Below the pieces are notes generated by a model. That model saw only the letters and a list, made by a program, of their open reading frames with translations. It was not told the DNA's origin and searched no databases. A stretch of 64,000 bases of DNA, from positions 5,964,001 through 6,028,000 of the forward strand of contig NZ_CP109598.1 in the NCBI RefSeq assembly GCF_036327775.1. Reading direction: 5' to 3'. Origin of the DNA: Streptomyces sp. NBC_01498. GTDB taxonomy: Bacteria; Actinomycetota; Actinomycetes; Streptomycetales; Streptomycetaceae. This document shows positions 18,478 to 57,061 of the stretch, one piece after another (within the stretch, counting starts at the first letter, position 1; the number at the start of each line of letters is the position of its first letter). Position numbers and translations under genes: made by a program.

Positions 18478-18564
18478 CGGCGTTTACGGACGAACCGGGG
18501 CGCCCGGCCGGTGACTGTACGCCCCCCGCCCCGCACTGTCAGTGGTGGATGGCACGATCGACCC

Positions 18565-19701
18565 ATGACGCCGATCGACTGGGACGACGCCGCAGACTCC
18601 TTCGACGAGGAGCCCGACCACGGGCTCCTCGACCCGACCGTGCGCGACGCGTGGGCCGCCAGACTCGCCGACTGGCTGCCCGCCGAGACCTCCAGCGTGC
18701 TCGACCTCGGCTGCGGCACCGGCAGCCTCGCCCTGCTCGCCACCGGGCAGGGCCACCGCGTCACGGCCGTCGACCTCTCCCCCCGCATGGTCGGACTGGC
18801 TCGGGCCAAGCTGTCCGGCACGGACACGGAGGTGCTGGTCGGCGACGCGGCCAGACCCCCCGTCGGGGAGCGCACCTTCGACGTGATCATGGTCCGCCAT
18901 GTGCTCTGGGTGCTGCCCGATCCCGACCGGGCCCTGACCCACTGGCTGTCACTGCTGCGCCCCGGCGGACGGCTGATACTCGTGGAAGGCGTCTGGGGCG
19001 GGGTCGGACTGCCGGCGGCCCGGGTCACGAAGTCCCTCGCCCCGCTCGTCGAGCGGGTCCTGCACGAGCCCCTCTCGGCGGACGCCTCGCTCTGGGGCCG
19101 CGCCGTGACCGACGAGCGGTACGCGCTGATCGCCTGCACCGACCAGCGCCGCCGCCACACCGAAGTGGTCGACGTCCATCTGATCCTGCGCCGGGGCGAC
19201 GAGGTGCTGCTGGCCCGCCGCTCCGGCACCGGTTACGGGGACGGTCTGCTGAACGCGCCGGCGGGGCACGTCGAGGACGGCGAGGACGTGCGGGAGGCGA
19301 TGATCCGCGAGGCGGCGGAGGAGATCGGCGCCTTCCTGCGCCCCGACGATCTGCGGACGGCCCTGGTCATGCACCACCGAGGTCCCGGCGGCCGGCCGCG
19401 CACGGGCTGGTTCTTCGAGGTGCGGTACGACGAGGCGCACGCCTCCTGGGAGCCGTACAACCGGGAGCCGGAGAAGTGCTCGGGCCTCCACTGGTATCCG
19501 CTGTCCGCGCTCCCGGACGACATGGTCGCCTACTGCCGCGCGGGTCTGGAGGCGTACCGGGCGGGGGAGCGTTTCCTGATCCACTGGCACGAGGACACCG
19601 ATCCGATCGCCCACGACCCGTCCGGCACCCCGCGCGCGATCCGGCTGGCCCGGACGGACGGCGGAGTCACGAGGACCGCCGGTGACGGAGCGGCGCGGTG
19701 A
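18565..19701 (+). CDS. Fused SAM methyltransferase-NUDIX hydrolase
   Basis: A 378-residue two-domain protein. Residues 1-185 are a class I methyltransferase: VLDLGCGTGS (about 45-54), VTAVDLSPRM and VRHVLWVLPDP. Residues about 195-350 are a NUDIX hydrolase; the complete box runs from GHVEDGE through REAAEEIG near residues 233-254. Substrates are unknown. The fusion suggests one pathway that both methylates and clears a nucleotide-type compound. ATG 18565 is chosen because it starts the methyltransferase fold; no strong ribosome-binding site is seen. The 3' end overlaps the convergent DUF402 gene by 35 bp. Confidence 0.85.
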   Translation: MTPIDWDDAADSFDEEPDHGLLDPTVRDAWAARLADWLPAETSSVLDLGCGTGSLALLATGQGHRVTAVDLSPRMVGLARAKLSGTDTEVLVGDAARPPVGERTFDVIMVRHVLWVLPDPDRALTHWLSLLRPGGRLILVEGVWGGVGLPAARVTKSLAPLVERVLHEPLSADASLWGRAVTDERYALIACTDQRRRHTEVVDVHLILRRGDEVLLARRSGTGYGDGLLNAPAGHVEDGEDVREAMIREAAEEIGAFLRPDDLRTALVMHHRGPGGRPRTGWFFEVRYDEAHASWEPYNREPEKCSGLHWYPLSALPDDMVAYCRAGLEAYRAGERFLIHWHEDTDPIAHDPSGTPRAIRLARTDGGVTRTAGDGAAR

Positions 19702-30891: not shown

Positions 30892-32085
30892 TCAGAGCAG
30901 CGCGAACTGCCCGTCCGGGCCCTCCTCGTGATGATCCAGCACGGAGGCGGGCCGCCGCGCCCAGCCGGGCACCGGCAACGCGCCCGCCGCCCGCAGCTCC
31001 TCGGCCCCGATCTGCGGCCCCTCGTCCAGCGCCCGGCCCAACTCCCGCTGCCGGGGCCGCAGTCCGGCGAGCAGCGCCAGTACGGTGATCAGCTCCAGCA
31101 GCTCCGAGGTCCACTCGCGCGGCCAGAGACGCGGCCCGATCGCCTCCAGGGTGCCCGGCTCCGGCCGCCCGGCGCGCCGCTCGAACCAGGTCTCGATCAT
31201 CCGTACGCCGCCGACCTGGAAGTCCCACGCCCCGGCCGGCACGGGGGAGATCCGGCCGTCACCGAGATGGAGCGTCTCGTCCTCGGAGTCGTAACGGATC
31301 GTGGTGGGCCACCCCGGCGGCGCCGCGCGGACGTACGGGCGGCGCCCACCCGGCAGGCGAGGGCGTTCCCCGCCGTGCGCGCCGCGCAACTGGACGCCGG
31401 TCAGCAGCGCGCCGAGTTCCGCACCGGTGGCCCAGAGGTCCGGGTCGGCGGTCAACGGCACCACACAGCCGCGCGCCGACGGCCGGGCCACCGCCACGGC
31501 CCAGTCCAGCAGCCCGCGCGGGGTGATCCCGTGGCCGAGGCGCGCCGAGAGCAGCGGGGCCAGACCGGGGGTGAGATTGGGTTCGGCGCCGCCCGGCCTG
31601 CGGAAGAGCGGCCGGATACGGCCGGGCCGCCCGGCGGGGGAACGGCCGTCCGGCAGCAGGGCTCCCACCAGCAGCGCCGGACCGGCCGCCCCGGGGACGA
31701 ACCCCTGCTCCACGGCGAAGAGTTGGTACTCGTCCGCCACCCGCCACAACTCCGGCCGGGCCGCGTCGATCAGCCGGTGGTCGGGGATCAGATACCGCTC
31801 GTCGAACGGACCGTGCCCGATCCGCACCGGCGGCGGGCACCGCCCGGCCTCGCGCGCGAACCGTCCCGTGCCGGTGGGCTGCCCCGGCAGCGCGGCGACC
31901 GCGCTCCTCGGCGTACGGGACCGGGTCGGCCGGAACAGCGCCTCGCGTTCCGCGCCGGTGGCCCGTATCAGGGTGTCCCAGCGTGCGGTGAGCGAGGCCG
32001 CGTCGGGGGCCGAGATCCAGCCACGGCCCAGCCGCAGCGGTGCCACCGACCACGGCATGAGATCGCCCAGCAGCGGGGCCGTCAT
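30892..32085 (-). CDS. Type ISP restriction-modification C-terminal (specificity) domain-like protein
   Basis: A 397-residue protein resembling the C-terminal domain of type ISP enzymes such as LlaBIII, which reads the DNA target. Typical features are PFDERYLIPD, PNLTPGLAP, a region placing VPLTADPDLW, and LHLGDGRISPVPAGAW before WDFQVGG. There is no N-terminal nuclease, helicase or N6-adenine methyltransferase motif, and no such gene is nearby. It may be a stand-alone regulator or DNA-binding relic rather than a working restriction enzyme. Assignment is by remembered family pattern. Confidence 0.65.
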   Translation of the reverse strand: MTAPLLGDLMPWSVAPLRLGRGWISAPDAASLTARWDTLIRATGAEREALFRPTRSRTPRSAVAALPGQPTGTGRFAREAGRCPPPVRIGHGPFDERYLIPDHRLIDAARPELWRVADEYQLFAVEQGFVPGAAGPALLVGALLPDGRSPAGRPGRIRPLFRRPGGAEPNLTPGLAPLLSARLGHGITPRGLLDWAVAVARPSARGCVVPLTADPDLWATGAELGALLTGVQLRGAHGGERPRLPGGRRPYVRAAPPGWPTTIRYDSEDETLHLGDGRISPVPAGAWDFQVGGVRMIETWFERRAGRPEPGTLEAIGPRLWPREWTSELLELITVLALLAGLRPRQRELGRALDEGPQIGAEELRAAGALPVPGWARRPASVLDHHEEGPDGQFALL

Positions 32086-48012: not shown

Positions 48013-49299
48013 TCAGCGGTAGCGGAGATAACGGGCCCGGGTCGCCCGGAACGCGGTGAGTTCGGCCTCCCAGGCGCCGACGACGTCGTCCGTGTCCGCG
48101 CCCGCGTCGATCAGGGTGCGTACGGAGGCCGAGCCGGTCAGCTTGTCGATCCAGTTGTCCTCCCGCCAGGCGAAGCCGCTCCAGGTCCGTTTCGCCGTCA
48201 CCAGCAGCGCGATTCCGGTGCGGACAGGGTCGAACAACTCGCGTTCGTGGACGTGCAGTTGGACCCCGCCGACCGTCCTTCCCTGGAACTTGGAGAACGC
48301 CGGGGTGAAGTACGCCTCCCGGAAGCGCACCCCGCGCAGCCCCTCGGCGTCGGCGGCCTCGGCCCACGTGCGGTCGACGCCCTCCGCCCCCAGCAGTTCG
48401 AAGGGCCGGGTCGTCCCGCGCCCCTCGGACAGATTGGTCCCCTCGAAGAGACAGGTGCCCGGGTAGACGAGCGCGGTCTCCGGCGTCGGCATGTTCGGGC
48501 TCGGCGGGACCCAGGGCAGCCCCGTCGCGTCGAAGAAGTCGGAGCGGCGCCAGCCGGACATCGTGACGACCTCCAGCCGCTCCACCGGCCGGGCCAGGAA
48601 CTCGCCGTTGAACAGCAGCGCCAGTTCGGCCACGGTCATGCCGTGCGCCTGGGCGACCGGTTTCCGGCCGACGAACGTCGCGAACTCCGGGTGCAGGACC
48701 GGCCCGAGGGCCGCCCGCCCGGTGACCGGGTTGGGGCGGTCGAGGACGACGACGTCCTTGCCGGCGAGGGCCGCCGCCTCCATGCAGTCGTACAGGGTCC
48801 AGATGTACGTGTAGAAGCGGGCGCCCGCGTCCTGGATGTCGAAGACGACGGTGTCCACGCCGGACGCGGTGAAGATGTCGGCGAGCGCCTGCCCACTGGT
48901 CTGGTACGTGTCGTACACCGGGAGTCCGGTGGCCGGATCGTCGTACCTGCCCTCGGAGCCGCCCGCCTGGGCGGTGCCCCGGAAGCCGTGCTCGGGGCCG
49001 AAGACGGCGGTCAGGTCGACGCGTGCGTCCGGGTGCATCACGTCCACGACGTGCCGCAGGTCCCGGGTGACCCCGGTCGGATTGGTGACGATCCCGACCC
49101 GCCGGCCGGCGAGTGTCCGGTACCCGTCGGCCGCCAGCCGGTCGAAGCCCGTACGTACGCCTCCGCCTCCGCCACTCCCGCTCCGGTCCCGACTCCCGGC
49201 GCCCGCCGCGTGGGCGGCCCCGGCGCCGGTCACCGCCGCCGCGCCGGTCACTCCCGCCGCGCCGCCCGCGGCGAGCACACTCCTTCTCGACAGGCTCAT
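48013..49299 (-). CDS. Secreted DUF1343 / GH171 exo-beta-N-acetylmuramidase (NamZ-like)
   Basis: A 428-residue exported enzyme of the NamZ family, which removes N-acetylmuramic acid from the non-reducing end of peptidoglycan fragments. A twin-arginine-type leader (SRRSVLAAGGAAG) ends near residue 32, then a Ser/Gly-rich linker. Family stretches: GRRVGIVTNPTGV, AVFGPEHGFRG, VFDIQDAGARFYTY, PNPVTG and NLSEGRGTTRPFE. It may feed cell-wall recycling. It is divergent from the SDR gene. Confidence 0.88.
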   Translation of the reverse strand: MSLSRRSVLAAGGAAGVTGAAAVTGAGAAHAAGAGSRDRSGSGGGGGVRTGFDRLAADGYRTLAGRRVGIVTNPTGVTRDLRHVVDVMHPDARVDLTAVFGPEHGFRGTAQAGGSEGRYDDPATGLPVYDTYQTSGQALADIFTASGVDTVVFDIQDAGARFYTYIWTLYDCMEAAALAGKDVVVLDRPNPVTGRAALGPVLHPEFATFVGRKPVAQAHGMTVAELALLFNGEFLARPVERLEVVTMSGWRRSDFFDATGLPWVPPSPNMPTPETALVYPGTCLFEGTNLSEGRGTTRPFELLGAEGVDRTWAEAADAEGLRGVRFREAYFTPAFSKFQGRTVGGVQLHVHERELFDPVRTGIALLVTAKRTWSGFAWREDNWIDKLTGSASVRTLIDAGADTDDVVGAWEAELTAFRATRARYLRYR

Positions 49300-49458
49300 C
49301 CGGCCACCTCCGTGATCATGATTTCAGTCATGGGCATGCACATGGCCCTGAACCCTGGGCGCTTCTCGGGACGCGGCTCCGGACGCGGCCGGCCGGGGGC
49401 GCGCCGGTCCCGCCGCGATGATCCCCGGACCGGTCGGGCCCGCACCCTTCCACGGCGA

Positions 49459-49471
49459 CATACCGACTGGT
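49459..49471. promoter_or_regulatory. Shared TetR-type operator, site B
   Basis: CATACCGACTGGT, followed by TAGTC, 55 bp before the SDR start. Identical in 13 bases to the sites before the molybdopterin oxidoreductase and the phosphotransferase. Confidence 0.6.
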
Positions 49472-49525
49472 TAGTCTGCTCCCGTCGAGCGGTGGGTACC
49501 GAGATGAACCGGAGAGGCAGGTCCG

Positions 49526-50290
49526 ATGAGTACGGTGCGGGACACGCGAGTGGTGGTCACCGGGGCCGGCGGCGGGATCGGCGCCGCGCTCGCCCGCCGA
49601 TTCGCCGCCGGGGGAGCCCGTGTCGTCGTCAACGACCTCGACGCGGCGAAGGCCGAGGCCGTCGCCGGGGAGATCGGCGCCGTCGCCGTACCGGGCGACG
49701 CCTCCGCCGTCGTCGAGCGGGCGCGCGACGCGCTCGGCGGCACCGTCGACGTCTACTGCGCCAACGCGGGCCTCGGCTCGGCCGGGGACGCCCTCGCCGA
49801 CGAGGACGTCTGGGCGTCGGCCTGGGACGTCAACGTCATGGCACACGTCCGCGCCTCCCGGATCCTGCTCCCCGACTGGCTGGAGCGCGGCGAGGGCCGG
49901 TTCGTCTCCACCGTCTCCGCCGCCGGACTGCTCACGATGATCGGCGCGGCGCCGTACAGCGTCACCAAGCACGGCGCCCTCGCCTACGCGGAATGGCTCT
50001 CGCTCACCTACCGCCACCGGGGCCTCAAGGTCCACGCGATCTGCCCCCAGGGCGTCCGTACGGACATGCTGACCGCCGCCGGATCGGCCGGCGACCTCGT
50101 ACTCGCCCCCACGGCCATCGAGCCCGAGGACGTGGCTCAGGCACTGTTCGACGCCATGGACGAGGACCGGTTCCTGGTGCTCCCGCACGCCGAGGTCGCC
50201 GACTACTACCGGGCCCGCGCCACCGACCCCGACCGCTGGCTGACCTCGATGAACAAGATCCAGCGGACCTGGGAAGCGGCCCCCCGGTGA
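49526..50290 (+). CDS. Short-chain dehydrogenase/reductase
   Basis: A 254-residue SDR. Cofactor motif TGAGGGIGAALA, then NDLDAAK (acidic residue favouring NAD), NAG in CANAGLG, catalytic Ser in SAAGLL and YSVTK. It probably oxidises or reduces a hydroxyacyl or alcohol group. Operator site B lies in its promoter, and a TetR gene follows 158 bp downstream on the same strand, the likely controller. Confidence 0.88.
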   Translation: MSTVRDTRVVVTGAGGGIGAALARRFAAGGARVVVNDLDAAKAEAVAGEIGAVAVPGDASAVVERARDALGGTVDVYCANAGLGSAGDALADEDVWASAWDVNVMAHVRASRILLPDWLERGEGRFVSTVSAAGLLTMIGAAPYSVTKHGALAYAEWLSLTYRHRGLKVHAICPQGVRTDMLTAAGSAGDLVLAPTAIEPEDVAQALFDAMDEDRFLVLPHAEVADYYRARATDPDRWLTSMNKIQRTWEAAPR

Positions 50291-50448
50291 CCGGCCCGCA
50301 CCCGGCCGGACACGGAACCGTACCCGCCGAGCCGCCCGGGACCGCGAGTGGGAGGATCCTCGGGCGGGAGCCGCGTCCGCGCCGGGAGACGGCGCAGGAC
50401 ACCACGGTGGCGGTTCCCGCGCGGAACTGAGAGAGGCAGGCGGCGACA

Positions 50449-51042
50449 GTGCCCAGATCGACGGACACCAACGGCACCCCCGTACCCCAGCGGCTGCTCG
50501 CCGCCGCCACCCGGCTCTTCGCCGAACAGGGCTACGGCAGCACCTCCGTCCAGGAGATCGTGGAGGCGGCCGGCGTCACCAAGGGCGCGCTCTACCACTA
50601 CTTCGGCTCCAAGGAGGACCTCCTCCAGGAGGTGTACGCGCGCGTGCTGCGCCTCCAGCAGGAGCGACTGGACGCCTTCGCCGACGCCGACGAGCCCGTG
50701 GAACACCGGCTGCGCGCGGCGGCGGCGGACGTCGTCGTCACCACCATCGAGAACCTGGACGACGCGGCGATCTTCTTCCGCTCGATGCACCACCTGAGCC
50801 CGGCGAAGAACAAACAGGTACGCGCCGAGCGGCGGCGCTATCACGAACGGTTCCGCGCGCTGGTCGAAGAGGGCCAGCGCGGCGGCGTGTTCACCGACGC
50901 CACACCGTCGGACCTGGTGGTGGACTACCACTTCGGATCGGTCCACCACCTCTCCACCTGGTACCGCCCGGACGGCCCCCTCACCCCCCAACAGGTCGCC
51001 GACCACCTCGCGGACCTCCTGCTGCGCGCGCTGCGCCCCTGA
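50449..51042 (+). CDS. TetR-family regulator
   Basis: A 197-residue repressor. Helix-turn-helix: STSVQEIVEAAGVTKGALYHYFGSK. The C-terminal domain matches TetR_C of fatty-acid regulators (FFRSMHHLSPAKNKQVRAERRRYH). The GTG start follows AGGCAGGCGG. It follows the SDR gene and is the best candidate to bind CATACCGACTGGT sites at three promoters in this window. That assignment is inference. Confidence 0.83.
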   Translation: MPRSTDTNGTPVPQRLLAAATRLFAEQGYGSTSVQEIVEAAGVTKGALYHYFGSKEDLLQEVYARVLRLQQERLDAFADADEPVEHRLRAAAADVVVTTIENLDDAAIFFRSMHHLSPAKNKQVRAERRRYHERFRALVEEGQRGGVFTDATPSDLVVDYHFGSVHHLSTWYRPDGPLTPQQVADHLADLLLRALRP

Positions 51043-51075
51043 AGCGACTGCGCAATCCGGGAAGTCGCGGCTCCC

Positions 51076-51810
51076 TCACTCGGGGCGGCCGTCCCCCGCC
51101 GGGGTCGCTGTGAACACGAAGTGCCCTGGTACGGCTCCGACTTGCCGCAGGCGCACAAGCTCCAACCCTCCGGCGCGCAGCAGCGATGCGAGCGAAGGAA
51201 CCAACGGACCGTAGACGCTGGCGACCAGGGCACCGTCCGCACGCAGAACCCTCGGTATCTCCGCGAGCAGTGGCACGGGGAGGGAGAAGTGGAAGACGAA
51301 GGCGGCAAGGACGAGATCGATGGTCCCGCCCCGGAACGGCAGTGGTCCGTCGCCGGATATCTGCACAACCTGCGCGCGAGCGTCACGCCGCCTCAAGGAG
51401 GCCGCGCTCATGTCGCATCCGTGGATGCGGCTGTCCGCGAAGGCGGCGCGGTAGAAGGGGATCGCCCGCCCGTCGCCGGTTCCGAAGTCGAGGATTGTCC
51501 CCGGCGACCCGATGTGGGCGGCGGCCGTCGCGGTCAGTTCCCGGACAACCTTCTCGTACAGCCGATCGTCGATGAGCAGGTCGGAACGCGCCAGCCTGAG
51601 CTCGCAGAGCTCGCGCACCTGTTCGGGGGGCAGCTGATGCACCGGTCGGGGCGAATAGACCCGGTCCATGAACCGGAACCACCGGCTCCCCTCGAAGCGC
51701 AGGGTGCGAGGCGCGGATCCTGAAATCCTCTCCAGCACCAGGAAGCTGCCGGAGCGGCTCACTTCATGGGCCGTTCCACTACTCGTCGGCGAATCCCCGG
51801 TCCCGTTCAC
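51076..51810 (-). CDS. SAM-dependent methyltransferase, last gene of low-G+C operon
   Basis: A 244-residue class I methyltransferase. Motif I is ILDFGTGDGRAIP (near residues 107-119), then HGCDMSAASL and LVLAAFVFHFSLPVPLL. An N-terminal 95-residue region of unknown fold precedes it. GTG 51810 is chosen because GGGAGGTG lies 4 bases upstream; an earlier GTG at 51843 lacks this. It is 95 bp after the 2H phosphoesterase stop on the same strand and convergent with a TetR gene, marking the right end of the operon's product set. Confidence 0.8.
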   Translation of the reverse strand: MNGTGDSPTSSGTAHEVSRSGSFLVLERISGSAPRTLRFEGSRWFRFMDRVYSPRPVHQLPPEQVRELCELRLARSDLLIDDRLYEKVVRELTATAAAHIGSPGTILDFGTGDGRAIPFYRAAFADSRIHGCDMSAASLRRRDARAQVVQISGDGPLPFRGGTIDLVLAAFVFHFSLPVPLLAEIPRVLRADGALVASVYGPLVPSLASLLRAGGLELVRLRQVGAVPGHFVFTATPAGDGRPE

Positions 51811-51905
51811 AGGCACCTCCCGGTGTCGCTCGGCCGCGACCACCCGCGCCCACGGCTCAGGAGTGGCGTCGTTCCCGCGTAAGCCGCTCGGAACATCGGC
51901 GAGTA

Positions 51906-52463
51906 TCAGAAGGCTAGGTCAAAACTCCTCAGAACGGACTGTTTGACGCCCTTCGAGCCGCTCACAGAGATGTCGACGGAGGCGATGCCGCACGCCGGGA
52001 TGGGAGGACGGCTGGTGTTGATGAAGGCGTCGACCCGATCGATGTCGACGGAAACGTGCCCCAGTGTCAGGTGCGGGACATCGGTGGTACGTGCGGGCTC
52101 GACGAACAAGGGGGCCAGGGCGCTCTGTGTCTCCTTGCGCCACTTCTGGACGCGCTCGGAGAACCGCACATCGGCAAAGATGTAATGGCCCGTCAGACTC
52201 TCTCGGTAGACAGGACCGAAGGCCATGACCGGTGGACTGTCGTCATCGGGGAACGACGACAACGCCCCGGCAACGGCGTCCTCCAATTCCCGGAGGTTTC
52301 CGCCACTCCGAAGGGTCCCCATGGCGATCGTCACGTGCGGCGAGGAATTGCCGCCCGGACCGAAGGCCACCATGCTGCCTGTCAGGGAGAAGAGTTGGGC
52401 GTTGAACCGGGAACACGCCTCCAAGGCGTGCGCTGTGACGGGGAAGTTGACACCCACTTTCAC
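51906..52463 (-). CDS. 2H phosphoesterase-like protein (2'-5' RNA ligase fold)
   Basis: A 185-residue protein with the two HxTx motifs of 2H phosphoesterases: PHVTIAMG (His43) and PHLTLGHV (His about 131), near 90 residues apart as in the family. Members cleave or form 2'-5' or cyclic phosphodiester bonds. GTG 52463 is preferred since AGGAGAGG lies 9 bases upstream; a TTG nearer that site is too close. It lies 15 bp after the nucleotidyltransferase stop. A role in turning over a nucleotide made by its neighbours is inference. Confidence 0.78.
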   Translation of the reverse strand: MKVGVNFPVTAHALEACSRFNAQLFSLTGSMVAFGPGGNSSPHVTIAMGTLRSGGNLRELEDAVAGALSSFPDDDSPPVMAFGPVYRESLTGHYIFADVRFSERVQKWRKETQSALAPLFVEPARTTDVPHLTLGHVSVDIDRVDAFINTSRPPIPACGIASVDISVSGSKGVKQSVLRSFDLAF

Positions 52464-52478
52464 CTTCTGCAACCTCTC

Positions 52479-52967
52479 CTATGTCCGCTCTCCGGTGTAT
52501 CCCTGGAGTATGTCGGCGATGATGTCGCTGGTCGACCGCTGGCGGGGCCTCGGCAGCAGAGTGAGTTCCACGCCGAGGCGCCGAAGTTCATCCTGTTCCG
52601 GGGTGGTGAGTGAAGCGAAGTGCGTGGCGCAGAAGCGATCCGGACGGATCGTCGCCACCAGGCGGAAGGGTGACACCTCGTCATAGACGGTCACGTAGTC
52701 GACCACGCGGAGACCGGCGATGATTCCGACTCGCTCGGTGAGGTTCAGTACGGGACGTCCGGGGCCCTTCCTGCGGGCGACCGACTGGTCACTCGCCAGC
52801 GCGACCACCAGTGAGTCGCCGAGTTCTCTCGCCGCTCTCAAAGACTGGACATGGCCGTAGTGAGTCAAGTCGAACACCCCCTTTGCCAATACCAGGCGCC
52901 CCACCGTGGCGCGTAGCGCCGGCGACGCGAGATCGGCCGGCTCCACCACGGCCGCGTCCGGCCTCAC
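52479..52967 (-). CDS. RfaE/HldE-like nucleotidyltransferase
   Basis: A 162-residue cytidylyl/adenylyltransferase. Nucleotide-binding motif HYGH (36-39) sits in KGVFDLTHYGHV; KGPGRPVLNLTER follows; the closing RSTSDII corresponds to the STT loop. This is the RfaE C-terminal domain pattern (ADP-heptose or CDP-glycerol type transfer to a sugar phosphate). The GTG start overlaps the kinase stop (GTGA). No heptose pathway is known in Streptomyces, so the true substrate is open. Confidence 0.82.
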   Translation of the reverse strand: MRPDAAVVEPADLASPALRATVGRLVLAKGVFDLTHYGHVQSLRAARELGDSLVVALASDQSVARRKGPGRPVLNLTERVGIIAGLRVVDYVTVYDEVSPFRLVATIRPDRFCATHFASLTTPEQDELRRLGVELTLLPRPRQRSTSDIIADILQGYTGERT

Positions 52968-53647
52968 GACCCGCTCTGGTCATTGCCGGGCGGGGGAAGG
53001 CGGACGCCCTGCTCCAGGAGCACCGCCGAGATCTGTGTGAACACCTGTAACGCTGTCTCCGCGACCCGTCCGTCACTCGCCTCCGTGTCCACGGCGACCA
53101 GCCTCTGGGCGCAGACCGTGCGCTCGTGGTCGCTTACGAAGCGCAGGGCCGTGTTCCGCAGACCGACCAGGAAATGGTCATTCATCACCCTGCCCTGATG
53201 GCTCGTCAATTTGTTGACGGCTTCCCTGGCCAGGCTCGCCCGAGGGCTGGTGGTGAACACGAAGCAGAGGTCGATCTCGTCCCGGAGATCTGGTATTTCG
53301 ACAAGCCGTCCGATGCTCTCGGCGTGCGCCGGGGAAACCTTGCCCATTGACAGAAGCGCACGGGTGAACAGCATCCTGTCGACCAGCCCACGGTCCAGCA
53401 GGTGAATACGCGGCGCGGAGCCCTCCGCATGGGTGGACAGGCAGTACCTGACTGCGTCACAGGCCAGATAGAGGTTGAGGCGACCCAGATCGCTCTTCCC
53501 GAGAGGGGCGTACCTCCCGCCGCCGTGGAACTCGGCCACGGGCAGGCCCTCTCTGCGCAGATAGTGCGAGATCACATCCATGACGGTTGTCTTGCCGCTC
53601 TTGGGCATTCCTGCGAATTCGATACTGATACTTCTCGCGAGTTTCAT
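52964..53647 (-). CDS. P-loop kinase (thymidylate-kinase-like)
   Basis: A 227-residue P-loop protein. Walker A is GMPKSGKTT (13-21). LLDRGLVDRMLF and an Arg-rich lid region (FTTSPRASLAREAVNKL) recall nucleotide and sugar kinases of the thymidylate-kinase fold. ATG 53647 is chosen because GGCGGAGAG lies upstream. It overlaps the nucleotidyltransferase start by 4 bases, so the two are likely functional partners: the kinase makes a phosphate, the transferase activates it. That pairing is inference. Confidence 0.77.
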   Translation of the reverse strand: MKLARSISIEFAGMPKSGKTTVMDVISHYLRREGLPVAEFHGGGRYAPLGKSDLGRLNLYLACDAVRYCLSTHAEGSAPRIHLLDRGLVDRMLFTRALLSMGKVSPAHAESIGRLVEIPDLRDEIDLCFVFTTSPRASLAREAVNKLTSHQGRVMNDHFLVGLRNTALRFVSDHERTVCAQRLVAVDTEASDGRVAETALQVFTQISAVLLEQGVRLPPPGNDQSGS

Positions 53648-53687
53648 CGGCAACTCTCCGCCCTCAAGTGACTGCTCTCTTCGCGGG

Positions 53688-54719
53688 TCAGCGGGCGTGG
53701 GCAACCTGGGTCACGTCCGCAGGGGGGAATTTCTGTATCGAGGCATCGGAGCGATAGTCAATGGACCGGCTCCGGAGGTAGAAGAGCATATGGCCGATGA
53801 CCACCAGACTGTTCCGGCGTTCCTGGCAGAGATCGGCCAGCGTGCCGGCGAGCCGTATGGCTTCCTCTTCGCGCACCCGGTCGTCGAGGCTGTAAAGATA
53901 CGACCACTGGATGGTCATGGCCCAGATGGGCTTGATGCCGTTCGCTCGCTGCGACTCCTCCGAATGGAGGTGAGCCTGGTAGAACTCGTGGTTCGCCGAA
54001 TCGACTCGCCCGAGCCGGAGCATGATCAGGGCTCTGTAGAAACAAGTGATGCCGTTTCTCGGTGACAGTCGAGACGCCTGTTCATGCGAATTGAGGGACT
54101 CTTCGAACTGTCCGGCGTCCCGCAGTAGCAGCCCGAGATAGTTCCAATTGTCCACCGAGGATCCGTCGTACTCCAGTGCCTTTTCCATGAGGCGGACGGC
54201 TTCATCCACGTCCACATACCGTTTCACGGTGGCAAGGGCCCGCCAGGCGTCCGCGTTCTCCTCGTCCTTTCTCAGGGCGATGCGCAGACTTCTTTCCGCG
54301 CGGCTGTTCAGCCCCTTATTGATCAGGGCCCGCGCGAGCCGAACGTGGATCTTACTGTTCTCGGGCTGGAGAGTGAGAGCCTGCTCGTGGTAGGAGATCG
54401 ACTGGTCGTAGTCGGCGGTTCGGTAGGCGTTCTCACCCTCGTGAAACAGATGTGCTGCAAGCACCACCGACTCGAAATCCGACTCGAAACTCACCAGTCG
54501 GCGCTCCAGCGCCATGCGGGTTTTCTCGGACTCTTCCAAGTCTTGTCTGATCCGGCCGCTCAGTCTCCGGAGGTCCTTGACCTCCCGGACACCGAAGAAG
54601 GCGACCACACCGATGATCAGCGTGACGACGGTGACGATGCCCAGGCTCATCTGGAGCGCGAGATTGGCGAGCTCCTCAAGGGCCGGTGCCTCGGGCGGGG
54701 CAGCGACAGAGAAAAACAC
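53688..54719 (-). CDS. Membrane-anchored TPR protein
   Basis: A 343-residue protein. One membrane helix (about 24-44, LGIVTVVTLIIGVVAFFGV), a coiled coil (about 45-85), then six or more tetratricopeptide repeats (about 90-285; for example ADYDQSISYHEQALTLQPE and GQFEESLNSHEQASRLSP). The TPR part faces the cytoplasm and probably scaffolds partners. The GTG start has GGGGGAT 6-7 bases upstream. It is the first gene of the five-gene low-G+C operon. A sampled 60-base line here is 57% G+C against 70% in the flanking acyl-CoA dehydrogenase gene. Confidence 0.82.
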   Translation of the reverse strand: MFFSVAAPPEAPALEELANLALQMSLGIVTVVTLIIGVVAFFGVREVKDLRRLSGRIRQDLEESEKTRMALERRLVSFESDFESVVLAAHLFHEGENAYRTADYDQSISYHEQALTLQPENSKIHVRLARALINKGLNSRAERSLRIALRKDEENADAWRALATVKRYVDVDEAVRLMEKALEYDGSSVDNWNYLGLLLRDAGQFEESLNSHEQASRLSPRNGITCFYRALIMLRLGRVDSANHEFYQAHLHSEESQRANGIKPIWAMTIQWSYLYSLDDRVREEEAIRLAGTLADLCQERRNSLVVIGHMLFYLRSRSIDYRSDASIQKFPPADVTQVAHAR

Positions 54720-54815
54720 CGGAAGATCCCCCTGTGTAGATCCACCGCCGACCTGTGGCGTCGGCCCCCGTGCGGCGAGTATGTCAAGCCGAGCGGAGGG
54801 TTGGCCAGCGATGAA

Positions 54816-56030
54816 CTACACGTGCTTCTTCAACTCCCGCCGCGCCAGCGACCGTTGGTGCACCTCGTCGGGGCCGTCCGCCAGGCGCAGGGTGCGGGCC
54901 GCCGCCCACAGCTCCGCCAGGGGGTAGTCCTGGCTCACGCCGCCCGCGCCGTGCAGCTGTACCGCGCTGTCGATGATGTCGACCACCGCGCGGGGCGTGG
55001 CGATCTTGATGGCCTGGATCTCCGTGTGGGCGCCCCGGTTGCCGACCGTGTCCATCAGCCAGGCCGTCTTGAGGACCAGCAGCCGCAGCTGCTCCACGGT
55101 CACCCGTGCGTCCGCGATCCAGTTCTGGACGACGCCCTGCTGGGCGATCGGCTTTCCGAAGGCCGTACGGGACACCGCCCGCCGGCACATCAGCTCGATC
55201 GCGCGCTCGGCCATGCCGATCAGCCGCATGCAGTGGTGGATACGGCCGGGGCCGAGCCGGGCCTGGGCGATGGCGAAGCCGCCGCCCTCCTCGCCGATCA
55301 GATGTGCCGCCGGGACGCGGACGTCGTCGAACGTCACCTCCGCGTGGCCGCCGTGGGAGTGGTCCTCGTAGCCGTACACGCTCATCGCGCGCTCGACGGT
55401 GAGGCCGGGGGTGTCGCGCGGGACCAGGATCATGGACTGCTGGCGGCGGGGGTCGGCGCCGTCCGGGTCGGTCTTGCCCATGACGATGAAGATCCGGCAG
55501 CCCGGGTTCATCGCCCCGGAGATGTACCACTTGCGGCCGTTGATCACGTAGTTGTCGCCGTCGCGCTCGATCCGGGTGCGGATGTTCGTCGCGTCGGACG
55601 AGGCGACCTCCGGCTCGGTCATCGCGAACGCCGAACGGATCTCGCCCGCGAGCAGCGGCTCCAGCCAGCGCTTCTTCTGCTCCGCGCTGCCGAACTGGGC
55701 GAGCACCTCCATGTTCCCGGTGTCCGGCGCCGCGCAGTTGAGCGCGGTGGGGGCCAACTGCGGGCTGCGGCCGGTGATTTCGGCGAGCGGCGCGTACTGG
55801 AGATTGGTGAGCCCGGCGCCGTGTTCGGCGTCGGGGAGGAACAGGTTCCACAGCCCCCGACGGCGCGCCTCGGCCTTCAACTCCTCGACCACCGCCGGGG
55901 TGTCCCACGGATCGGCGAGCCGGGCCCGCTGCTCGTGGGCGACCGCCTCGGCGGGGCGGACGTGCTTGTCCATGAAGTCCAGCAGTTCGGTGCGGAGTTC
56001 CTCGGTGCGGGCGTCGAATGCGAAGTCCAT
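54816..56030 (-). CDS. Acyl-CoA dehydrogenase
   Basis: A 404-residue FAD enzyme of the long-chain ACAD10/11-like branch. Typical stretches: AFAMTEPEVASSDATNI (FAD/substrate), WYISGAMNPGCRIFIVMG, RTAFGKPIAQQG, and the C-terminal LHGAGGVSQDYPLAELWAAAR. It introduces the first double bond in beta-oxidation of an acyl-CoA. It starts 8 bp after the phosphotransferase stop, so the pair is one operon, as in many actinobacteria. Confidence 0.92.
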   Translation of the reverse strand: MDFAFDARTEELRTELLDFMDKHVRPAEAVAHEQRARLADPWDTPAVVEELKAEARRRGLWNLFLPDAEHGAGLTNLQYAPLAEITGRSPQLAPTALNCAAPDTGNMEVLAQFGSAEQKKRWLEPLLAGEIRSAFAMTEPEVASSDATNIRTRIERDGDNYVINGRKWYISGAMNPGCRIFIVMGKTDPDGADPRRQQSMILVPRDTPGLTVERAMSVYGYEDHSHGGHAEVTFDDVRVPAAHLIGEEGGGFAIAQARLGPGRIHHCMRLIGMAERAIELMCRRAVSRTAFGKPIAQQGVVQNWIADARVTVEQLRLLVLKTAWLMDTVGNRGAHTEIQAIKIATPRAVVDIIDSAVQLHGAGGVSQDYPLAELWAAARTLRLADGPDEVHQRSLARRELKKHV

Positions 56031-56038
56031 GGACCGGG

Positions 56039-57061
56039 TCAGCCTTCCTGGAGGGTGGTGAGGCCGTGCTCGATGAAGACCGGGACGAGATCGCCGATGC
56101 GCTCGAATCCGCCGCCGACCGTCTGGCCCAGCGTGTAGCGGTAGTGAATGCCTTCGAGGATCACCGCGAGCTTGAACCAGGCGAAGGCCGTGTACCAGGC
56201 GATCGCCGAGGTGTCGCGGCCCGACCCGGCGGCGTACCGCTCGATCAGTTCGGCCGGGCCCGGGTGGCCGGGAGCCCCGGCGGTCGTACTGATCGGGGAG
56301 CCGGGGATGTCCAGCGGCGCGCTGTACATCACCAGCAGACCGAGGTCGGTCAGCGGATCGCCCAGCGTGGACATCTCCCAGTCCAGTACGGCCCTGATGC
56401 GGTCGTCGTCGCCGATCAGGACGTTGTCGAGCCGGTAGTCGCCGTGCACGACGGTGGGCGCGGGGGAGACGGGCAGGGAACGGCCGAGCGCCGCGTGCAA
56501 CTCGTCCACCCCGGGGAGGTCCCGGTTCCGTGAGGCGTCCAACTGCTTGGCCCAGCGGCGCAGTTGGCGGTCGAGGAACCCCTCGGGCCGGCCGAAGTCG
56601 CCGAGCCCGACGGTCCCGGGGTCGACCGCGTGCAGGGCGACCAGGGTGTCGACCAGTCCGAGGACGGCGGCGTGGGTGCGTGCGGGGCCGAGCGGGGCGA
56701 GCTGTCCGGCCGTACGGTACGGGGTCCCCGTCACGTACTCCATCAGGTAGAACGGCGCCCCCAGCACCTCGGGGTCCTCGCACAGCAGCAGCGGCGCGGG
56801 CACCGGCACGGCCGTCGGGTGCAGGGCGCTGATCACCCGGAACTCGCGTTTCATGTCGTGCGCGGTGGCGAGGACATGACCGAGCGGTGGCCGGCGGACC
56901 ACCCAGTCGTGGGAGCCGTCGCCGACGAGATACGTCAGGTTCGACCGGCCGCCCTCGATCAGCCGCGCGGTCAGCGGTCCGCCCACCAGACCGGGGCGCT
57001 CGCGGTCGAGGTGGCCGCGCAGCCGCTCCGGGTCGAGTCCTGGTGGGGGACTGGGGCTCAT
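56039..57061 (-). CDS. ACAD10-type aminoglycoside phosphotransferase-fold kinase
   Basis: A 340-residue APH-fold kinase. N-lobe LIEGGRSNLTYLV, then the Brenner motif VVHGDYRLDNVLIG and the metal Asp in AVLDWEMSTLGDP. Partners of acyl-CoA dehydrogenases of this kind are thought to phosphorylate hydroxyacyl-CoA, as in human ACAD10. ATG 57061 follows GGAGG by 8 bases and is preferred over 57076. Operator site C lies in its promoter, so the operon is probably in the same TetR regulon as the SDR gene. Confidence 0.87.
   Translation of the reverse strand: MSPSPPPGLDPERLRGHLDRERPGLVGGPLTARLIEGGRSNLTYLVGDGSHDWVVRRPPLGHVLATAHDMKREFRVISALHPTAVPVPAPLLLCEDPEVLGAPFYLMEYVTGTPYRTAGQLAPLGPARTHAAVLGLVDTLVALHAVDPGTVGLGDFGRPEGFLDRQLRRWAKQLDASRNRDLPGVDELHAALGRSLPVSPAPTVVHGDYRLDNVLIGDDDRIRAVLDWEMSTLGDPLTDLGLLVMYSAPLDIPGSPISTTAGAPGHPGPAELIERYAAGSGRDTSAIAWYTAFAWFKLAVILEGIHYRYTLGQTVGGGFERIGDLVPVFIEHGLTTLQEG

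Follow-up and report, generated by a model that had tools for sequence, protein, structure and literature searches.

A window of 64,000 nucleotides from Streptomyces sp. NBC_01498 (contig NZ_CP109598.1, positions 5,964,001 to 6,028,000; positions below are counted from its first letter) contains five minus-strand genes that, by open reading frame (ORF) calls, span positions 51076-54719. They are predicted to code for a tetratricopeptide repeat protein (TPR), a P-loop kinase (KIN), a nucleotidyltransferase (NT), a 2H phosphoesterase (PDE) and a methyltransferase (MT). Together they form an actinobacterial cassette that is probably horizontally spread and is rare in the samples searched, with the core TPR-KIN-NT-PDE-MT and, in two of five copies, an additional HD-domain gene. 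The tentative reading is that the cassette makes and tunes a small molecule linked to a nucleotide and that it most likely serves in defence or conflict. Defence is the leading reading, with accessory metabolism next, and is favoured because of two intimate defence contexts. The case for an anti-phage role of the cassette is circumstantial.

Distribution, genomic context and insertion of the cassette

Homologous loci were located by scanning a collection of one genome per species (84,980 species) with KIN, in which 38 pattern matches led to five confirmed relatives; the scan, which looks for exact words back-translated from a single sequence, therefore undercounts. In four of the five relatives (Streptomyces sp. 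NBC_00154, S. anulatus NRRL B-2873, Promicromonospora sp. MEB111 and P. citrea) all five genes are present, with order and orientation unchanged, which bears out the proposal of an initial annotation of this DNA that the genes travel together. The fifth is a lone distant kinase on a Pacearchaeota contig. Protein identity to the window copy is 66-78% in Streptomyces and 34-49% in Promicromonospora. The ratio of nonsynonymous to synonymous substitution rates (dN/dS) ranges from 0.11 to 0.58 over all computed pairs, with PDE and MT highest; purifying selection thus acts on all five genes, though more weakly on PDE and MT. Between the window and the two other Streptomyces copies the ratio is 0.17-0.23 for TPR, KIN and NT and 0.29-0.38 for PDE and MT.

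Two of the hosts carry the cassette directly beside known defence genes. The S. anulatus copy is flanked on one side by pglX and on the other by pglW of a type 2 (Pgl) bacteriophage exclusion (BREX) system. At 1509 residues, the pglW frame is full-length (it matches positions 3-856 and 884-1388 of the 1403-residue model, at E 0 and 2.9e-110), and a tRNA-Ala gene is found beyond it. The match of the pglX frame has an E-value of 9.7e-227, the frame ending 82 bases short of the contig end, and a 100-base perfect repeat of the 5' part of pglX flanks the cassette on both sides. The NBC_00154 copy also has a tRNA-Ala gene nearby, with an identical anticodon and with similar genes downstream, and in front of it are 88 bases that resemble the 5' end region of S. 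anulatus pglX. The P. citrea copy is divergently oriented to the Wadjet genes jetA-jetB-jetC. Defence accounts for 0.59% of actinobacterial genomes, with 6.14 systems per genome, according to a passage of PMC10482375. If chance adjacency is assumed to occur at a rate of 0.4-5% per locus, the probability that at least two of five loci adjoin defence genes, computed post hoc, is P = 0.00016-0.023. The duplicated pglX 5' segment of S. anulatus and fragments of a second cassette copy that follow there (L003, 1645-1888, 6504-6763 and 7839-8060) are signs of recombination at the BREX locus.

The block in the window is an insertion at a place that also accepts other DNA. Sixteen homologous sites were fetched from other Streptomyces (of 24 same-genus genomes). 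In nine of these, the pieces coding for the flanking TetR and acyl-CoA dehydrogenase proteins are 31-165 bases apart, and tblastn at E 1e-3 detects none of the five proteins in the 16 stretches; the transfer suggested in the initial annotation is supported in so far as the block is an insertion. Five other sites hold different DNA of 1.7-3.5 kb between the two flanking genes, one has no TetR match within the stretch and one ended early at a contig end. Only short imperfect repeats were found around the insertion in the window, and the five frames leave no space for an integrase. Read by eye, the cargo at the TetR/acyl-CoA dehydrogenase junction differs in other Streptomyces (L039, L041, L042, L045, L046 and L048), as at a variable integration place, and includes histidine-kinase-like, large caspase/NTPase-like, peptidase-like and transposase-like proteins.

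The rarity of the cassette was also seen in genome samples, which partly overlap and in which only the best first-look candidates of each genome were scored. A search with the KIN protein in 297 genomes of the family and one with a KIN profile in 394 class-level genomes recovered only its own genome, as did the PDE (E 0.001) and TPR (E 1e-25) profiles in 227 phylum-level genomes. Among 392 genomes of the genus, the KIN profile matched three, namely its own and two with divergent kinases (29-31% identical) that do not have the other four genes nearby. At E 0.01, 11 of 396 phylum-level genomes matched; one besides its own was convincing (E 1.1e-20) and was without such partners, and the nine matches at E 0.001-0.01 were taken as chance. 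TPR and MT gave no plasmid match at E 1e-8. NT matched 53 plasmid records, all at less than 60% identity; of four that were opened, three showed other metabolic contexts and one had no gene annotation. In IMG/VR, NT matched five contigs at 35% identity over 74 residues. No paper describing the five-gene set by title or abstract was found among the open-access papers searched, and neither of two passages retrieved by term search from a 2026 BREX survey (PMC12839542) is about such a module.

Predicted proteins of the cassette

KIN is a predicted kinase of the deoxynucleoside kinase (dNK)/thymidylate kinase superfamily. Its Walker A motif (GMPKSGKTT) and a DRG motif are invariant in five homologues, and its AlphaFold model (predicted local distance difference test score, pLDDT, 81.7) has its best PDB matches to AbmG, deoxyadenosine kinases and thymidylate kinases (best E 4.7e-9). 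KIN resembles the deoxynucleoside and thymidylate kinases, including AbmG, in predicted fold, Walker A and the DR motif. It differs from them in sequence (11-22% identity among the 50 matches listed), in genomic partners and in having no Pfam family above cut-off, the only match being MeaB at E 0.08. AbmG is described in a passage of PMC12691670 as a nucleoside kinase of albomycin biosynthesis. Divergent lone kinases without the other four genes alongside were also seen in G439, G837 and G849, as on the Pacearchaeota contig (L006), with lone relatives noted in L023 and L024; this kinase family is without its own Pfam entry. The gene next to the distant actinobacterial kinase of G439 (L019, 7258-8579) is NUDIX-like, at E 0.0013 and under the cut-off.

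NT matches PF01467 at 51.5 bits (gathering score 21). Its HxxH motif is invariant, the glycine of HxGH is kept in three of five copies, and the STS motif (S145-T146-S147) and R140, five residues ahead, are likewise invariant. These features are those of the HxGH cytidylyltransferase-like superfamily. NT shares the HxGH-type fold with the nucleotidyltransferase domain of RfaE2/HldE and with CTP-using relatives, which include cytidylyltransferases for glycerol-3-phosphate, ethanolamine-phosphate and choline-phosphate. Its arginine five residues before STS is like one reported, in a commentary (PMC11461863), to precede the STT motif of heptose transferases able to use CTP and UTP as well, where it is not strictly necessary.

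PDE contains two invariant HxT motifs (H46-V-T48 and H134-L-T136) and scores 23.2 bits against Pfam LigT, just under the cut-off of 23.3. The two motifs and the two-lobed fold of its AlphaFold model (pLDDT 84.0) are those of a 2H phosphoesterase, and 2H enzymes, among them LigT and plant cyclic phosphodiesterase (CPDase), are its best matches in the PDB. PDE is like LigT, plant CPDase and AKAP18 in fold and in both HxT motifs, but is only 9-17% identical to such enzymes (33 matches, E <=0.001) and is encoded with a kinase and a nucleotidyltransferase.

In both other Streptomyces loci a sixth gene, located between PDE and MT and overlapping both, codes for a 226-residue HD_4-domain protein (36.9 and 37.6 bits, cut-off 27.2). 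The window DNA can be aligned with L002 as far as 9813 and then from 10373 onward; 32 bases in between stay unaligned, and about 530-560 bases of the HD gene are missing. By this alignment, the window copy has lost the HD gene and retains remnants only. In the Promicromonospora loci, the spacing between PDE and MT is too small for an HD gene.

The TPR protein has one strongly hydrophobic segment at about residues 24-44 (hydropathy peaks at 2.69 over the 19 residues that start at residue 26), followed by a charged stretch, read by eye as coiled coil, and by the repeats matched in Pfam. It is probably membrane-anchored. Its homologue is the first gene in all four other full loci (37-78% identity), and that of MT is the last (34-69% identity). 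MT matches PF08241 at 46.5 bits, and the S-adenosylmethionine (SAM) motif is conserved in its homologues. From these matches and models we infer the enzyme assignments and the substrates discussed below.

Possible functions

In the proposed pathway, KIN would phosphorylate a hydroxyl of a nucleoside-like or sugar-like substrate, and NT would join the phosphorylated product to CTP (or ATP or UTP) to form a nucleoside diphosphate (NDP)-linked compound, NDP-X. MT would methylate the product or a precursor. PDE, together with the HD protein where present, would degrade the product and set its level, and the TPR protein would either hold the enzymes at the membrane or receive the product as a sensor or effector. 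We likewise infer the reaction order, the nucleotide used, the roles of MT, HD and TPR, the membrane location and the function in defence. The most specific version of the defence reading is unlikely: a new anti-phage system in which an NDP-linked signal or antimetabolite would be made from a nucleoside-like or sugar-like alcohol and methylated, would be kept low by PDE (and HD) until infection, and would have the membrane TPR protein as its receptor. Such a system would be, to our knowledge, the first defence signalling based on an HxGH-type transferase and not on a Pol-beta-type, CRISPR-polymerase or TIR enzyme.

If defensive, the cassette would bring into bacterial immunity a nucleotide-linked metabolite that belongs to none of the known classes, and would tie small-molecule activation chemistry to phage resistance. 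If metabolic, it would point to an unknown nucleotide-linked metabolite of actinobacteria and provide the enzyme set to identify it. Under either reading the unit of five genes is small and mobile and lends itself to testing. Among known systems, Clover (a dNTPase with a nucleotidyltransferase) and the cyclic-oligonucleotide-based anti-phage signalling system (CBASS) share with the cassette the idea of a nucleotide signal in a defence module and the presence of an HD protein in some versions (for Clover, PMC12265719). The transferases of both are of the Pol-beta type, whereas NT is of the HxGH type (PF01467) and the cassette is without a known effector.

Several results weigh against a defence function. 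The initial annotation had raised clustering with defence genes, which is seen in two hosts (S. anulatus and P. citrea) and not in the window, where no defence system adjoins the block among the 36 genes scanned with PADLOC (15 frames left out). The hits of that scan were a lone type ISP C-terminal domain at a distance of 19 kb and two methyltransferase matches of a generic kind (mad2). The closest candidates in MEB111 (a TIR-ATPase and a Schlafen-type helicase) lie some 9-15 kb from the cassette. The pglX frame of S. anulatus covers about half of its model (69-592 of 1189); with pglX partial and its 5' part duplicated, the cassette may have inserted into a BREX locus that was damaged. The number of loci is small (five), with two at one shared site, and the association was noticed post hoc. 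Against PADLOC 2023, the five proteins gave only weak TPR matches (best E 1.7e-4) and a generic mad2 methyltransferase match (E 6.2e-7), with no BREX component among the matches, and the HD protein was unmatched. No effector was recognisable with Pfam among the five proteins. KIN was unmatched in 72,556 plasmid (E 1e-3) and 50,697 phage records (E 1e-2), PDE was unmatched in plasmids (E 1e-3), and neither had a confirmed match in IMG/VR. PDE and MT are also less constrained, with dN/dS up to 0.56 and 0.58, respectively, in distant pairs.

The strongest competitor of the defence reading, and a real though somewhat less probable possibility, is an accessory or specialised-metabolite module producing a decorated nucleotide-linked building block, such as a headgroup, a sugar or a nucleoside antibiotic precursor. 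KIN, NT and MT would build this compound, PDE and HD would trim it and TPR would scaffold the enzymes at the membrane, while the adjacency to defence genes would reflect shared use of integration sites only, in keeping with the unrelated DNA at the integration site in other Streptomyces. The catalytic members have small-molecule enzyme folds, and their best solved-structure matches are AbmG for KIN, ethanolamine-phosphate cytidylyltransferase for the NT profile and phosphatidylethanolamine N-methyltransferase for MT. These matches are, however, at family level only (15% identity to AbmG), and no further biosynthetic, transfer or export gene recurs in the flanking frames, which were read by eye and not all scanned for families. 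A metabolic role also leaves the placement beside pglX/pglW and Wadjet to chance, and the defence reading remains the one tentatively favoured.

The other explanations are much less probable. In repair by Pnkp/Hen1 and fungal Trl1, RNA ends are processed, and an analogous role here, with KIN phosphorylating 5'-OH ends, PDE opening 2',3'-cyclic phosphates, MT marking the ends and NT adding a nucleotide, would agree with the PDE fold, which is nearest to RNA 2',3'-cyclic phosphodiesterase-type enzymes, and with the presence of a methyltransferase. This is improbable, as no ligase is found among the five proteins, NT is an HxGH small-molecule transferase, MT scores 11.9 bits against a Hen1 cut-off of 340, and KIN matches nucleoside and thymidylate kinases, with no polynucleotide kinase among the 50 structures listed. 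Pnkp/Hen1 repair in particular was not favoured, since neither its RNA ligase nor its Hen1 methyltransferase was recognised. It is about as doubtful that the block is a decaying passenger without function in the window genome. The HD gene has indeed been lost, but the five frames are intact and constrained relative to the Streptomyces copies (dN/dS 0.17-0.38), and the HD gene is absent from Promicromonospora too and is therefore not essential to the unit.

A variant ADP-heptose pathway is the least probable of all. The nearest NCBIfam model of NT is TIGR02199 (heptose-1-phosphate adenylyltransferase), at 117.2 bits, but this is 64 below the cut-off of 181.5. NT also differs from RfaE2/HldE in having STS and not STT, without a glycine before the motif. 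The GD pair of the cytidylyltransferase structure 5x9q, which we take to be HldC, aligns with [ST]H in the NT homologues, and this change therefore suggests another substrate for NT. No PfkB-type heptose kinase, isomerase or phosphatase occurs among the genes of the block, the four partners of NT belonging to other families. The pathway was rejected on the score, the GD to [ST]H change and the missing partner enzymes. The statement of the initial annotation that no use of ADP-heptose is known from Streptomyces is itself contradicted by septacidin of S. fimbriatus, for which passages of PMC11461863 and PMC10948575 describe such use.

Layout of the block and other features of the window

The features of the block are listed in Table 1. 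The overlaps and short gaps noted in the initial annotation for the same-strand genes are present, KIN and NT overlapping by 4 bases and NT and PDE being separated by 6. Homologues suggest that KIN starts at an ATG at 53647 and MT at a GTG at 51807. The G+C content of 51043-54815 is 64.2%, compared with 72.5% in the remaining window, and the lowest value among 527 overlapping windows of equal size that do not touch the block is 68.3%. The low G+C content noted earlier therefore stands, but the value of 57% given for it is too low for the whole block and is reached only locally (lowest 200-base value 55.5%). A scan of 49000-57000 with Rfam gave no match, a tRNA search of the window found none and a sigma-70 promoter scan gave no match.

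Table 1. Position, strand and basis of assignment of the cassette genes and adjoining features in the window.
Feature	Position	Strand	Basis
TPR protein gene (first of block)	53688-54719	-	ORF call; Pfam TPR families
KIN, predicted P-loop kinase, dNK/thymidylate-kinase fold	52964-53704	-	Walker A; AlphaFold model; PDB matches
NT, predicted RfaE2/cytidylyltransferase-type nucleotidyltransferase (HxGH superfamily)	52479-52967	-	PF01467; TIGR02199 below cut-off
PDE, predicted 2H phosphoesterase	51906-52472	-	two HxT motifs; AlphaFold model; PDB matches
HD-domain gene remnant between PDE and MT	51808-51905	-	DNA alignment to L002
MT, predicted class I SAM methyltransferase with its own N-terminal region	51076-51843	-	PF08241
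Inserted segment	51043-54815	.	between convergent TetR and acyl-CoA dehydrogenase genes; comparison with 16 homologous sites
TetR gene (flank)	50449-51042	+	
Acyl-CoA dehydrogenase gene (flank)	ends 54816	-	

Two further genes of the window were noted. The stand-alone type ISP restriction-enzyme C-terminal specificity domain (PF18135) is encoded at 30895-32085 on the minus strand; it matches the PADLOC model REase_MTase_IIG at E 1.8e-58 and covers about the last third of that model only. At 18511-19698 on the plus strand, one frame fuses a class I methyltransferase with a NUDIX domain.

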